Shown here piece after piece: positions 33,988-39,083 of a stretch of DNA of 53,381 nucleotides. The notes beneath the pieces were generated by a model, which made no database searches, was not told the origin of the DNA, and worked only from the letters and a program-made list of their open reading frames with translations. Source of the DNA: Deltaproteobacteria bacterium (lineage in GTDB: Bacteria; Myxococcota_A; Bradymonadia; REDH01); contig REDH01000095.1 of NCBI GenBank assembly GCA_007693585.1, forward strand, positions 1-53,381, read 5' to 3'. Each line of letters starts with the position of its first letter. The stretch's first letter is position 1. Position numbers and translations under genes: made by a program.

Positions 33988-34075
33988 CCGTTGTTGCCCG
34001 GTGGCCGCCGCGACACTACGGTGGCCGTGTGACGCCCGCGTCATCTCCGATCCTCTCATCCACCCGCCCGACCCC

Positions 34076-34432
34076 ATGCGCACTCTCGTCCCGCTGCTGC
34101 TCGTGCCGATCGTGCTCGTCGTCTCCCTGTCGACCGGCTGTCGCGCCGGGGAGCCCGCCTCGCCGCAGAACGTCTACATGCGGATGAACTATCAGGCGCC
34201 GGTGGCGGGCGACCGGGCGCGCCTGTTCGTGCTCGATGCGGATGCGAACGTCCCCTCGGCCACCATCGGCGTGCAGTGTGACGACGACGCGCAGGAGGTG
34301 CGCGTCACGTCGGAGTTGGGCGAGGAGGAGGTGTGTGGCGTGCGCCTGCGGCTCGACGAGGTGGTGCTCGATGATCAGGAGCAGCCGCGCGGCATTCGGC
34401 TGAGTGTCCACTGGGAGACCGGCGGAGACTGA
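34076..34432 (+). CDS. Small hypothetical lipoprotein
   Basis: A 118-residue lipoprotein; the ATG at 34076 begins a Leu/Val-rich signal with lipobox LSTGC, Cys22. The mature part of under 100 residues is mostly beta and acidic, with two Cys (VQCDDDAQ and EEVCGVRL) that could form a disulfide. No family recognised. It ends 45 bases before the convergent propeller lipoprotein gene. Confidence 0.65.
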   Translation: MRTLVPLLLVPIVLVVSLSTGCRAGEPASPQNVYMRMNYQAPVAGDRARLFVLDADANVPSATIGVQCDDDAQEVRVTSELGEEEVCGVRLRLDEVVLDDQEQPRGIRLSVHWETGGD

Positions 34433-34477: not shown

Positions 34478-35815
34478 TCAGGGCGTCGAACGCCACCCGC
34501 AGCGCTCCCGGGGCAGCGCCACCAGGGTCTGGGGCATACCGCCCACCGCGAGGGGGCGGCCCCCGTCGAGGCGCGCGCCGGTGGCCGCGTCCACGCGCAC
34601 CAGCCCGGGGCGCGCCGGGTTCCGGTCGGCGATCCACAGCACGCCGTCGAGGTCGATGAGATCCTGCACGCCCTCGCTCGCGTGAATGGGCTCGTTGTCG
34701 ACCACGCCGTGCCGGAGGTCCAGGGAGAACACAGCGGTGGAGAAGCTCTCGTCCGCGGCGAGGACCCATGCCTGCCCGGGTGCCGACGCGGGGCGGAGGA
34801 GCACCACGTCGCGGTCGCCGAGGTCGGCCTCCGTGGCCAGCACGGCGCGGGTGCCGTCGTGGCCGAGCCACTCGATGCCGCCGTCGTCCTCGCGCTGTCC
34901 GCGGACGCGGTAGTTGCCGGCGCTGCCGACGAGCAGCCCGTCCGCCACGGGAATGGCGGTGACGGGGTTGCAGAAGGACAGCGTGATCTCGGTGGGTGCC
35001 GGCAGGTCGACGGTCCCGGCGTCGGCGGGCTGTGCGAAGGCTTCGGCGGGCCAGCGGAGGACGGCGCCCGCCGTGTCGTCCCCGCAGGAGAACCGGCGCA
35101 GGCGCTGGAGGACGACATGCACGGCGCCATCGGCCGGGAGGAGGAACGCCGGAAGCGCGTCTCCGCCAGCGGGGGCCCAGGGGGAGACGTCGACGCTGGT
35201 CCCCGAGCGCGCGGGGCCGCCGGGGTCGAGGTGCACCTGGGCGATGCGGTCCTCACCGTAGAGGGAGATCCAGCCGTGGGCGTCGTCCTGGGCGATGATG
35301 TCCCACGGGTTGCTGCGGCTGCCCAGGGAGCGCTGGCTATGCACGGCGAAGCTGCGCTCCGGATCGAGCTCCACGAGGGTGTCGGCGCCGAGGCGCTCGA
35401 GCGCGAAGAGGCGGTCGCCCACGCGCCGGATCACGGTGTCGGCGAAGAGCGAGGTGAGGTTGCGCTCGACGGTGAGCGAGTGGGCGTCCACGCGGGAGAG
35501 GGAGGCGGTCTGGGTGTAGTCGCCGACGAGGACGGCGAGGCAGGAGCGATCGTCTTCGGGGGCCGTGTTGTCCGGGCCGGAGGAGTTGTTGGGTCCGGAG
35601 GAGGGGATGGTGCCGGGCGAGGGGGTCGTGGTGGGGTCGGCGACGTCGTCGCGGGTCGTCCCGGGGTCGGAGGCATCGGGATGCGCGTCGTGGACGTCGG
35701 TCGGGTCGGGTGTGTGGGGGTCGGTGGCGGCATCGAGGCGGCAGCCGGCGAGCAGCACGGCGGCGATCGCCGTGGCGATCGCGAGGGAAATGCGCTGGGG
35801 TGCGTGGCGGCTCAT
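34478..35815 (-). CDS. YncE-like beta-propeller lipoprotein in the B12 operon (BtuG-like)
   Basis: A 445-residue lipoprotein; lipobox LLAGC, Cys25, then a Thr/Pro/Asp-rich linker to about residue 90. The body has blade-like repeats of the YncE/SMP-30 type: DRLFALERLGADTLVELD, SNPWDIIAQDDAHGWISLYG, VHVVLQRLRRF and GVLWIADRNPARPGLVRVD. Its ATG overlaps the stop of the TonB receptor gene by four bases, so it is translated with the receptor and lies under the same cobalamin riboswitch. In Bacteroides, BtuG is a surface propeller lipoprotein that binds B12 tightly and hands it to BtuB. The gene order and fold here suggest an analogous role. That is inference: I cannot show sequence homology to BtuG beyond the propeller pattern. 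Confidence 0.8.
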   Translation of the reverse strand: MSRHAPQRISLAIATAIAAVLLAGCRLDAATDPHTPDPTDVHDAHPDASDPGTTRDDVADPTTTPSPGTIPSSGPNNSSGPDNTAPEDDRSCLAVLVGDYTQTASLSRVDAHSLTVERNLTSLFADTVIRRVGDRLFALERLGADTLVELDPERSFAVHSQRSLGSRSNPWDIIAQDDAHGWISLYGEDRIAQVHLDPGGPARSGTSVDVSPWAPAGGDALPAFLLPADGAVHVVLQRLRRFSCGDDTAGAVLRWPAEAFAQPADAGTVDLPAPTEITLSFCNPVTAIPVADGLLVGSAGNYRVRGQREDDGGIEWLGHDGTRAVLATEADLGDRDVVLLRPASAPGQAWVLAADESFSTAVFSLDLRHGVVDNEPIHASEGVQDLIDLDGVLWIADRNPARPGLVRVDAATGARLDGGRPLAVGGMPQTLVALPRERCGWRSTP

Positions 35816-37923
35816 GGCAGCGGGGCCTCGTGGTGGAGGGTGAGGAGCACGGTGCGCCCGGGCAGGGGGAAGCCGAGGAGGTCGGAGACCGGCTGGGGGA
35901 GGTGGAGGGTCTCTCCGCCGGAGCGGAAGGGTGCGTCGGCGATCCGGTGGTCGAGGACGTTGCGCACGGTGGCGCCGAGGGCGAAGCGTCGCCGGCGGTC
36001 GAGGTGGAACTGGGCGTGGGCGCGGTGGGTGATGCGGGGGGGGAGGGCGCGGGTGTTGGCGGCGTCGACGAAGAAGGGGCCCTGGGCGTGCACGTCCCAG
36101 CCGGTGCGGAGGCGTCCCCATTCGGAGCGGAGTCCGGCGTGGCCTTCGAGCTCGGGGACGAAGGGCAGGCGTCGGCCTTCGAGGTCGGGTCCTCCGCTGC
36201 GCTGGATGGCGTCGAGGAGGGTGCCGGAGGCGTGGAGTCCGAATCCGGCCGGGAGGCTGGCGTCGAGTCGGGCCTCCCAGCCGCGGAAGCGTGCGCGTCC
36301 GATGTTGATGGGGCGTCGTGCGCCCTGGCTGTTGCGCACCCAGGCGATGAGGTCGTGGGCGACGGCGTCGAAGACCGCGAGCTCCAGGGACAGGCGGGTG
36401 TGGTGCTGCGGGAGGTGGAGGGTGGTGCGGAGGACGGCGTCGACGGTGTCGCGGCGTTCGGGGGCGAGGGTGGGATCGCCGACGCTCCAGCCGCGGTCTC
36501 CGTGGAGCTCGTGGAAGGCGGGGATGCGTCCGAGGCGGGTGAGGCCGAGGCTGGCGGAGATGTCGAGGGGCCGGCTTCCGGAGGTGGCGGCGAGCCGGGC
36601 GGCGGCGGAGGGCAGGAGGTGTTCGCCGGGGGGGTGCGGGTCCGGGGCTGTGGTCCGGGTGTAGTCGGCGCGCGCGCCGGCGCGCAGGTGGAGGTGCTCG
36701 GGGAGGAGTTCGAGGTCGGCCTCGGCGCCGGCGCCGGCGCCGGTGCGGGTGACGCGGAAGGTGTCGGGTTCGCGGGAGCGGTCCTCGTCGCGGAGCTGTT
36801 CGGCGTGGAGGTCGGCGAAGGTGTCGAGGTTGAGGGCCGGGGCGGCGGCCCAGGCGAGTCGGGCGTGTGCGGCGCCGCGTTCGGTGCGGGTGGTGCGGGT
36901 GGTCCCTCCCGGGGTGAGCTCGCCGAGGGGGTCGTCGAGGCGGGAGCGGTCGAGGGCGAGGATGGCGTTTCCGTCGAGGTCGAGGTTGGCGTGTGGCCAG
37001 CGGGTGCGTCTCGCGGACACCATGAGGTCGGCGTGGTGGTCGGCGAGACGGGTGCGTGTGCTCGGGAGTCCGGCGGGTCCGGGGAGTCCGGCTTCGCGTG
37101 CTCCGGCGAGGAGGAGGGCGGTGGTGTGCCAGGGGCCGATGCGGCGGCGGTGTCGCAGGAGGGTGCTGGCGCTGGCGTGGTCGTTGTTTCGTCGGCGGGC
37201 GTCGGGTCGGTCGTCGGAGGGGTCGAAGGGGGTACCGCCGTCGTCGAGGTAGCGCCAGTTGCCGTGTCCGCCGGCGAGGAGGAGTCGGGCGTCGGTGCGC
37301 CGTTCGTGGTCGTCGACGAGCTGGAGGACGCCGAGGGCTTCGCGTTCGAGGTGGCTGCCGAGGGTGAGTCGTCCGGTGGCGCGGGACTGCTGAGCATCGG
37401 GGGAGTGGAGGGCGATGGCGCCGCCCGGGAGGGGTGGGCCGTGGCGGAGGGGTGGGGCGGTGCGGTGGAGGGTGAGGTCGCCGAAGAGGGCGAGGGGGAC
37501 GCGGGAGAGGTCGACGGCGGGTCGGGCGCCGCCGTGCAGGGGGATGCCGTCGAGGAGGACGCGGGTCTGATCGGGGTTGGCGCCACGGATGGAGAGGAAG
37601 GCGGGGGCGACGCCGGAGCCGCCCTGGCGGAGGTGGACGCCGGCGCGTCCGCCGAGGGCATCGTGGACGTCGGTGGGCTGGTGGAGGGCGCGTTCGAGGG
37701 GGATGCGTTCGCTGGCGCCGTCGCGGGGGTCGGTGCCGTCGTGGTCCGGGGCGACGGAGCGGGTGACGGGGGTCGCGTGGGCGGTGGCGTGGGGCAGGTG
37801 GGGGATGGCGAGGAGGAGGAGCGGGACGAGGAGGATCAGGCTGTTCGTGGCAGCGGGCGCGTGCGGCCGGCGGGGTGCTCGGGCACGGGTGGAGGGCAGG
37901 GATGTCCGCGGGGCGTCGGGCAT
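35812..37923 (-). CDS. btuB: TonB-dependent outer-membrane receptor, cobalamin type (BtuB-like)
   Basis: A 703-residue TonB-dependent receptor. The ATG at 37923 gives a basic N-end and a signal peptide ending near ATAHA (about residue 50). The plug domain (about 70-175) shows DVHDALGGRAGVHLRQGG, FLSIRGANPDQTRVLLDGIPLH and PGGAIALHS. The rest is a 22-strand-type barrel with many Arg/His/Asp, and motifs such as ADYTRTT, FHELHGDRGW and RFRGWEARLD. Plug phrases alone fit BtuB/FepA-like receptors. The cobalamin riboswitch directly upstream is the evidence for vitamin B12 as cargo. No clear TonB box was found. Coupled by ATGA to the propeller lipoprotein. Confidence 0.88.
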   Translation of the reverse strand: MPDAPRTSLPSTRARAPRRPHAPAATNSLILLVPLLLLAIPHLPHATAHATPVTRSVAPDHDGTDPRDGASERIPLERALHQPTDVHDALGGRAGVHLRQGGSGVAPAFLSIRGANPDQTRVLLDGIPLHGGARPAVDLSRVPLALFGDLTLHRTAPPLRHGPPLPGGAIALHSPDAQQSRATGRLTLGSHLEREALGVLQLVDDHERRTDARLLLAGGHGNWRYLDDGGTPFDPSDDRPDARRRNNDHASASTLLRHRRRIGPWHTTALLLAGAREAGLPGPAGLPSTRTRLADHHADLMVSARRTRWPHANLDLDGNAILALDRSRLDDPLGELTPGGTTRTTRTERGAAHARLAWAAAPALNLDTFADLHAEQLRDEDRSREPDTFRVTRTGAGAGAEADLELLPEHLHLRAGARADYTRTTAPDPHPPGEHLLPSAAARLAATSGSRPLDISASLGLTRLGRIPAFHELHGDRGWSVGDPTLAPERRDTVDAVLRTTLHLPQHHTRLSLELAVFDAVAHDLIAWVRNSQGARRPINIGRARFRGWEARLDASLPAGFGLHASGTLLDAIQRSGGPDLEGRRLPFVPELEGHAGLRSEWGRLRTGWDVHAQGPFFVDAANTRALPPRITHRAHAQFHLDRRRRFALGATVRNVLDHRIADAPFRSGGETLHLPQPVSDLLGFPLPGRTVLLTLHHEAPLP

Positions 37924-37989
37924 TGCGTGCGCGGCGGGGAGGAGTCGGGTTGTGCGGGTGGCGACCCGGAACGCGGGGTCGACTCCACC

Positions 37990-38018
37990 GATGCCGCCCG
38001 GGTGGGGTGGGCGGCATC
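37990..38018 (-). promoter_or_regulatory. Candidate expression-platform hairpin of the riboswitch
   Basis: A perfect 10-bp stem (37990-37999 with 38009-38018) with a nine-base loop, starting five bases after the B12 box. It could act as a terminator or compete with the riboswitch core. No T tract follows, so control of translation or Rho-dependent termination is also possible. Confidence 0.5.
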
Positions 38019-38023
38019 GCCGT

Positions 38024-38200
38024 GGCAGGTCTTCGGGCTTCGGGGTTCGGGGCGTTGGGCCCGCACCGCGCGCGACTCCTTCCCGGTGTGTGTGTGCACC
38101 AGTGGGCTCGTCGTTCGCGTCGTCCGTCACCGCTGCGCGTCAGCTCCGGAATTGCACCGGATTCCCTCTTCACCCGGGCCCGCGTCGCCTCTTCGGGGGC
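38024..38200 (-). ncRNA. Cobalamin (adenosylcobalamin) riboswitch
   Basis: The conserved cobalamin riboswitch elements appear in order on the minus strand. First GGGTGAAGAGGGAATCCGG, with the GGGAATCCGGTGCAATTCC core (38149-38166) and GACGCGCAGCGGTGACGG. Then GCCCACTGG (about 38099-38106) and GGGAAGG (38078-38084). Last is the B12 box AGCCCGAAGACCTGCC (38024-38039). Spacing and order fit a class I element of about 180 bases. It should switch off expression of the downstream receptor and propeller lipoprotein when B12 is plentiful. The 5' boundary is approximate. Confidence 0.93.
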
Positions 38201-38232
38201 GGCGCGGTGCGTCCGGGCACCACGGCAGGCTG

Positions 38233-38262
38233 GGCATAGCCGCTGGAGGGCGAGGAGTGCAA
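38233..38262 (-). promoter_or_regulatory. Promoter of the riboswitch operon
   Basis: On the minus strand: TTGCAC, 18 bases, TATGCC. Predicted transcription start near 38226, about 25 bases before the riboswitch, which is where it should be. Confidence 0.5.
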
Positions 38263-38318: not shown

Positions 38319-39083
38319 TCAGGGACGGGGGGGCGCGGTCACCGTGACGTCCTGAAGGGGCGCGCGGTCCGGGGCGCCGTGGGCGAAGGCCCAACTCGGG
38401 GGCTGGTCGGGGTGGGCGGGGAGGCTGATCAGGGAGGAGGAGACGGTCCGGAATCCGCTGTCGGTGGCGATGTTCATGGCGCTCAGCGGGTCGTCGGCGA
38501 GGAGCGGTGTGCGGTCGGAGAGCAGGGCGATCCACGGGGACCAGTCGATCCGATTCGCGTCGCTGGTGGGCGGGATGGCGAGCATGCGCGGGAAGACGCG
38601 CCGGAGGCGGGGCATGCGGGGGTCGTTGCGCTCGCCGGCGGCGAGGGCGTGGCGGCCGGGCGGAATGCGCTCGTGGGTGGTGTGGCCGGAGGCGAAGCGC
38701 TGGACGAAGTGGGCCTCGCGGCGGTCGACGAGCACGAGGTTGCACGGTTGCCAGCGGTCGGCGGGCTCGGCGGTGACGGATCGGGCGGCCTCGGCGGCGG
38801 AGTCGCTCCGGAGGGCGACGAGGGGGAGGGTGCCGCGGCTCTCGCGCCCGGAGACGGGGCCGAGGGTGAAGGGCCGGTTGAGGAGGATGGCGAGGAAGCC
38901 GTCGCGCCGGAGGGCGAGCCAGGTGCCGCCACCGAGGAGGTCGAGGCCTCCGATGACGTCGGGCTGATCGTCCCAGTGGGGGGCGGGTGGGGCGAACGGG
39001 CGGTCGGCCATCTCGTCGCGGTTGGCGGCGACGAGGGTGGGGCGCGCGGGATCGTCGGAGAGGTCGAGGAGGACCGTGCACAT
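38319..39083 (-). CDS. NRDE / TANGO2 family protein
   Basis: A 254-residue protein of the NRDE (DUF833, TANGO2) family. It begins MCTVLLDL with the conserved Cys2, followed by VAANRDEMADRPF, which carries the Asn-Arg-Asp-Glu motif that names the family. Next come GGTWLALRRDGFLAILLN and a central CNLVLVDRREAHF. Eukaryotic TANGO2 is linked to haem and acyl-CoA handling; bacterial members are largely uncharacterised. The ATG at 39083 is well placed for the N-terminal Cys. The gene lies upstream of, and in the same direction as, the B12 operon, but that operon has its own promoter. Confidence 0.9.
   Translation of the reverse strand: MCTVLLDLSDDPARPTLVAANRDEMADRPFAPPAPHWDDQPDVIGGLDLLGGGTWLALRRDGFLAILLNRPFTLGPVSGRESRGTLPLVALRSDSAAEAARSVTAEPADRWQPCNLVLVDRREAHFVQRFASGHTTHERIPPGRHALAAGERNDPRMPRLRRVFPRMLAIPPTSDANRIDWSPWIALLSDRTPLLADDPLSAMNIATDSGFRTVSSSLISLPAHPDQPPSWAFAHGAPDRAPLQDVTVTAPPRP

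Follow-up and report, generated by a model that had tools for sequence, protein, structure and literature searches.

The stretch of DNA analyzed here (the window) comprises 53,381 nt of a Deltaproteobacteria bacterium (assembly GCA_007693585.1, contig REDH01000095.1; GTDB lineage Myxococcota_A; Bradymonadia; REDH01) and carries, on its minus strand, a cobalamin riboswitch of Rfam family RF00174 (38238-38007), followed by the genes of a TonB-dependent receptor (P0002, 703 aa, 37923-35812) and of a lipobox-containing lipoprotein (P0001, 445 aa, 35815-34478). The two proteins are very probably a divergent uptake pair of the BtuB-BtuG type for vitamin B12 (corrinoids), the receptor being BtuB-like and the lipoprotein a BtuG-like propeller. 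The riboswitch was detected with the Rfam covariance model at 61.6 bits (E value 6.8e-13; gathering cut-off 31.5 bits), with model positions 1-189 complete, and was the sole Rfam match at gathering level in the window. A previous interpretation, made without database searches (the sequence-only reading), had named the riboswitch, the TonB receptor, the lipoprotein and an ATGA overlap between the two genes. All four were confirmed, by Rfam, by Pfam, by the lipobox LAGC (residues 22-25) and by the tetranucleotide itself at 35815-35812, where receptor stop and lipoprotein start overlap. Translational coupling of receptor and lipoprotein is likely at this overlap.

Profile and fold relationships of the two proteins

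The receptor was matched by the Pfam families TonB_dep_Rec_b-barrel (PF00593, 4e-25) and Plug (PF07715, 1.4e-9). The match to the NCBIfam B12-receptor model TIGR01779 was weak (38.6 bits) and did not reach the equivalog cut-off of 599.7; the protein is therefore called BtuB-like rather than an equivalog of Escherichia coli BtuB. The PDB search set contained 177,635 distinct sequences, and a receptor profile (A6) run against it placed BtuB1 (8blw_A) at the top with 5.1e-62, followed by XusA (9gbc, 3e-52), BtuB3 (6e-51) and E. coli BtuB (about 9e-50), while the first receptor belonging to neither the B12 nor the Xus group was found at 7e-48. The plug and barrel, from 37740 down, were modelled using AlphaFold2 (AF2) with a predicted local distance difference test score (pLDDT) of 90.5 and a predicted template modelling score (pTM) of 0.89. 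The first five Foldseek matches of this model were BtuB3 and BtuB2 structures, with XusA next. The closest solved relatives of the receptor are thus BtuB proteins, namely BtuB1 by profile and BtuB3/BtuB2 by predicted fold.

Searches of Pfam, NCBIfam and the PDB with the single lipoprotein sequence gave no useful match, and no propeller model was among the results, so that profiles were needed. Profile A5 was built from 55 propellers of several phyla, its other members being taken from loci that had been found by the receptor alone. Its nine best PDB matches were all BtuG (E values 3.1e-11 to 2.8e-10), and NirF came next at 2e-7. An earlier profile restricted to Myxococcota (A1) aligned BtuG1 (8ptd, 8ptf, 8blw_B) over nearly the full length at 6e-13 to 1.6e-12, in second place behind a generic YVTN S-layer protein. 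The notion that the lipoprotein is just some propeller was dropped, since BtuG outranks every other solved propeller with A5. Using the A5 alignment, the propeller domain (34511-35545, including the motifs SNPWD and VLQRL) was modelled by AF2 with a mean pLDDT of 92.3 and a pTM of 0.90, and the first 19 PDB matches of the model in Foldseek were BtuG1, BtuG2, BtuG3 and XusB, with template modelling (TM) scores of about 0.6-0.75. The predicted structure is thus a confident propeller of the BtuG type, and the non-propeller fold that would have refuted the sequence-only reading did not turn up. The "YncE-like blades" of the sequence-only reading were right as to the kind of protein, by profile and AF2 model, although no propeller model of Pfam or NCBIfam matches the lipoprotein itself. 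Among the 55 relatives, Asn92-Pro93 (numbered from 35584) is invariant, and Asp49, Arg64 and Gly88 are nearly so.

Recurrence of the receptor-propeller pair

Conservation within the phylum was examined in 96 genomes, i.e. that of the window and 95 relatives. A six-frame search with the lipoprotein alone recovered relatives with an identity of about 30%, both within the same family and from one other family, and five of these sit behind a same-strand RF00174. The neighbourhoods of almost all riboswitches of the 96 genomes were then gathered and the profiles iterated. Among the 98 riboswitch loci obtained, many of which end at contig ends, a receptor of the family was present in 45, a propeller in 34, and both in 29. 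When the propeller profile was run genome-wide without regard to riboswitches, 31 of 56 strong matches were preceded by an RF00174 on the same strand, at a distance of no more than 6.5 kb. Conservation of the pair behind cobalamin riboswitches in other Myxococcota, which the sequence-only reading had proposed to look for, was accordingly found.

For the comparison across phyla, a receptor-only alignment (A4) was scanned against a collection of one genome per species (84,980 species), which yielded 80 loci with named organisms; three loci among the results (L147, L158 and L173) are duplicates of records obtained earlier. RF00174 lies upstream of the receptor on the same strand in 65 of the 73 loci with upstream sequence, the propeller is the next gene after the receptor in 66 of the 72 with downstream room, and both features occur in 56 loci. 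Riboswitch and propeller are found together in nine phyla: Myxococcota, Latescibacterota, Pseudomonadota, Eiseniibacteriota, Thermodesulfobacteriota, Krumholzibacteriota, Spirochaetota, Gemmatimonadota and Calditrichota, as assigned from record titles, several of which are coarse labels of draft genomes. The cultured Desulfonema magnum 4be13 (L190) is one carrier of the complete set of riboswitch, receptor and propeller. The pairing of receptor and propeller is recurrent and not due to chance. In eight loci (L188, L194, L195, L197, L202, L203, L204 and L218) a second RF00174 is located between receptor and propeller, which places the propeller gene itself in the B12 regulon.

A BtuB-BtuG-like system outside Bacteroidetes, as put forward in the sequence-only reading, is supported by these profiles, folds and loci. 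The further suggestion that the lineage has its own B12-capture complex holds for the presence of a BtuBG-type pair and fails for its being particular to the lineage, the pair occurring in many phyla. Propeller-assisted capture is probably an old and widespread route of B12 import in diderms (Myxococcota, Thermodesulfobacteriota, Spirochaetota, Latescibacterota, Eiseniibacteriota, Krumholzibacteriota, Gemmatimonadota, Calditrichota and others) rather than an invention of gut Bacteroidetes, with the lid anchored, depending on the lineage, by a lipid or by the type IX secretion system (T9SS), and often with a second capture lipoprotein of the LIC_13355 type.

BtuG has been reported as exclusive to Bacteroidetes, based on BLASTP searches of 313 gut strains, and described as key to the competition of Bacteroidetes for B12 in the gut (PMC6143338). 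No description of BtuG outside Bacteroidetes was found in the papers mentioning BtuG that were examined (subscription papers and preprints were outside the scope of this survey). Published work has placed B12-binding DUF4465 proteins in several phyla, Myxococcota among them, and PF16819 propeller genes are frequent neighbours of theirs; the wider picture was thus already partly visible. Should phyla of soil, sediment and water rely on the same pair, capture of B12 with high affinity would be a general strategy in B12-limited environments, models of B12 sharing in soil and sediment communities would have to count these scavengers, and lipoproteins annotated as "YncE-like" or "hypothetical" beside TonB receptors would gain a testable function. 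Very divergent BtuBG pairs would also be a means to learn which residues truly hold and release corrinoids.

Comparison with solved systems and alternative explanations

The solved complexes of Bacteroides thetaiotaomicron are BtuB1G1 (8BLW), BtuB2G2 (8BMX) and BtuB3G3 (8P97/8P98) (PMC10404256, PMC6143338). The window pair resembles them in that genes for a TonB-dependent receptor and a propeller lipoprotein lie side by side in a corrinoid-riboswitch locus and in that these structures are the best matches of both proteins in profile and fold searches. It differs in its occurrence outside Bacteroidota, in an identity of about 10-16%, in the long Asp/Pro/Thr tether of the lipoprotein, and in a unit of two genes only, the inner-membrane transporter being encoded at another place in the genome. 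The XusA-XusB xenosiderophore system (9GBC, 9HQE; PMC13142918) likewise consists of a TonB-dependent transporter and a propeller lipoprotein, but serves another ligand. E. coli BtuB (1NQE and others) is, like the window receptor, a TonB-dependent receptor of the B12 group, but has no propeller partner and ranks below the Bacteroides proteins BtuB1 and BtuB3.

Several results weigh against assigning the pair to BtuB-BtuG. The structural alignments with BtuG showed an identity of just 10-15%, and the best single Foldseek match of the propeller was the siderophore lipoprotein XusB, so that fold alone does not fix the ligand. The pocket of BtuG2 is narrowed by Trp194, Trp272 and Tyr316. Trp194, taken by spacing in the aligned chain to be the Trp of NCWSYQ, aligns with the family motif V-x-L-Q-R-L-D in a column where Gln is commonest (30 of 55), and the contact chemistry therefore seems not to be simply kept. 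In addition, 16 of the remaining propeller loci from the 96 genomes were examined, and none had a riboswitch at gathering score. The same kind of receptor lies directly upstream on the same strand in eight of these 16, which indicates that the gene pairing is more constant than the link to the riboswitch. Receptor-propeller pairs of the same families lacking an RF00174 at that score include L233, L234, L236, L237 and L244; such pairs may either be B12 pairs that lost the switch or serve another ligand. Finally, the export signal that follows the Cys in lipoproteins of Bacteroidetes has been described as restricted to that group (PMC6143338), and its presence in Myxococcota cannot be taken for granted.

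The very low pairwise identity would be explained if an unrelated propeller had been recruited beside BtuB and had come to resemble BtuG in its working without being a specific homologue; blade motifs can also coincide by chance among repeat propellers. Such convergence is nevertheless improbable, given that all nine top PDB profile matches were BtuG among many propellers, that receptor and propeller independently match the same solved complexes best, and that intermediates exist, e.g. a Latescibacterota protein weakly matching DUF5074 (PF16819). The sequence-only reading had left the choice between descent and convergence open. Since both partners point independently to the same complexes, with A5 singling out BtuG among solved propellers and A6 BtuB1 among solved TonB-dependent transporters, descent is the better supported origin of the BtuG likeness by sequence profiles.

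Slightly less probable again is a XusAB-like system, in which the ligand of the propeller lipoprotein is a siderophore or another metal chelate, the connection with the riboswitch being secondary. The rank of XusB in Foldseek, the presence of XusA among the receptor matches, a weak match of the receptor to MxcH, a model of siderophore receptors (56 bits; cut-off 925), and the pairs without a detected riboswitch all keep a siderophore role in play. The sequence profiles, however, choose BtuG over XusB and BtuB1 over XusA (5e-62 against 3e-52); no Pfam match to DUF4374, the family of XusB, was obtained, and XusB was not among the A5 matches in the PDB up to an E value of 0.001. The cobalamin riboswitches upstream of 65 of 73 relatives, and directly before the propeller gene in eight loci, also argue against it, as does the receptor tree, in which the riboswitch-less receptors do not form a cluster of their own. 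That tree was calculated using FastTree and is weak at deep forks; a separate functional clade of riboswitch-less receptors had been considered and was dropped, these receptors being scattered in the tree and several merely being without upstream sequence. The least probable of the three explanations is that only the receptor transports B12, the lipoprotein being a YncE-like propeller with a periplasmic or structural role and no tie to the receptor beyond the operon. Propellers of the YncE family and of the YVTN type are indeed common, and several relatives match YncE/YVTN models weakly. This particular propeller is nevertheless the neighbour in 66 of 72 receptor loci, its profile puts BtuG several orders of magnitude ahead of YncE, members from the Fibrobacteres-Chlorobi-Bacteroidetes (FCB) group bear T9SS sorting domains as marks of surface export, and the separate riboswitches on the propeller gene place it in the B12 regulon.

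Anchoring, proposed working and accessory features

The lipoprotein starts with the signal sequence MSRHAPQRISLAIATAIAAVLLAGC (signal peptide with lipobox at 35741-35815), in which the lipidation Cys is residue 25 and the +2 residue is Arg; the residues after the Cys are RLDAATD. The lipid anchor is connected to the propeller by a low-complexity, Asp/Pro/Thr-rich tether of about 65 residues (residues 26-90; 35546-35740). A lipobox is present in many family members. The propellers of Eiseniibacteriota, Latescibacterota and Krumholzibacteriota instead lack a lipobox start and have a C-terminal T9SS type A sorting domain, which scored above the curated cut-off in five of eight tested (L157, L164, L172, L174 and L225). 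Proteins exported by the T9SS end up on the cell surface or outside the cell, and these domains in FCB-group members argue for a propeller that acts outside the outer membrane; if it follows the solved Bacteroides complexes, the lipoprotein of this organism would also be positioned on the outer surface. A Deltaproteobacteria-labelled propeller protein (L198:5824-7443) ends in a CFI-box-CTERM domain (108 bits), possibly a further signal for anchoring or processing.

The host genome encodes a B12-dependent MetH, and CobS was not found in its assembly (97.7% complete). One partial match to GATase_3 was obtained, and a BtuC/BtuD-like permease fragment and ATPase are located at a contig end. The combination of MetH, the BtuC/BtuD-like pair and no detected CobS makes the host look like a B12 scavenger, and it is likely to lack B12 synthesis. 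Corrinoid binding, complex formation and a lid mechanism are proposed for this organism from the Bacteroides BtuBG complexes (PMC10404256). According to this scheme, low intracellular cobalamin would allow the riboswitch to permit expression of the two-gene message, receptor and lipoprotein would be made together, and the receptor would form a plugged beta-barrel inserted in the outer membrane. The lipoprotein, held by its lipid and the flexible linker, would sit as a propeller over the mouth of the receptor, capture a corrinoid and hand it to the barrel for TonB-driven import.

An 11-bp hairpin (37989-38019, minus strand; arms CGAUGCCGCCC and GGGCGGCAUCG) lies at the 3' side of the aptamer and occupies the final bases of its closing helix. 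It folds with -28.7 kcal/mol (z -2.9 relative to shuffles), no U-run follows it, and from its sequence it is a candidate expression platform. The probable next gene downstream, judged from open frames, is on the opposite strand (34001-34432), and the receptor-lipoprotein unit therefore appears to consist of two genes. The upstream neighbour, a minus-strand frame at 38319-39083, is presumably an NRDE/TANGO2-type protein by its sequence.

A frequent third gene of the B12 loci, often located between riboswitch and receptor, encodes a domain with the motif DGPGxDxxVFEN that was found in 52 frames of L011-L221, e.g. L158:2980-4761 and L147:8103-9326 (minus strand). The NCBIfam LIC_13355 family (NF033170) matched 31 of 33 members, and no Pfam or PDB relative was found. 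LIC_13355 is a putative Leptospira lipoprotein with host-binding activities (PMC11891782). The family thus differs from the present system in being known in Leptospira for host binding and not for B12 uptake, and it is absent from the two-gene unit of the window. In a same-family relative (L147/L011; genome G002, contig C211), the riboswitch is followed by the gene of a LIC_13355-type lipoprotein and then, overlapping it, that of a propeller lipoprotein, and the receptor gene runs convergently on the opposite strand. The host genome (G000) contains two RF00174 elements in all, that of the window and one on contig C24 (about L018:9615-9824, minus strand). The latter heads a gene for a 736-residue lipoprotein (L018:7256-9466, minus strand) in which a weak match to Big_2, a part resembling the propeller (8.6e-7 with A5) and a C-terminal LIC_13355-type domain were recognized, possibly a second, multi-domain B12-capture lipoprotein.

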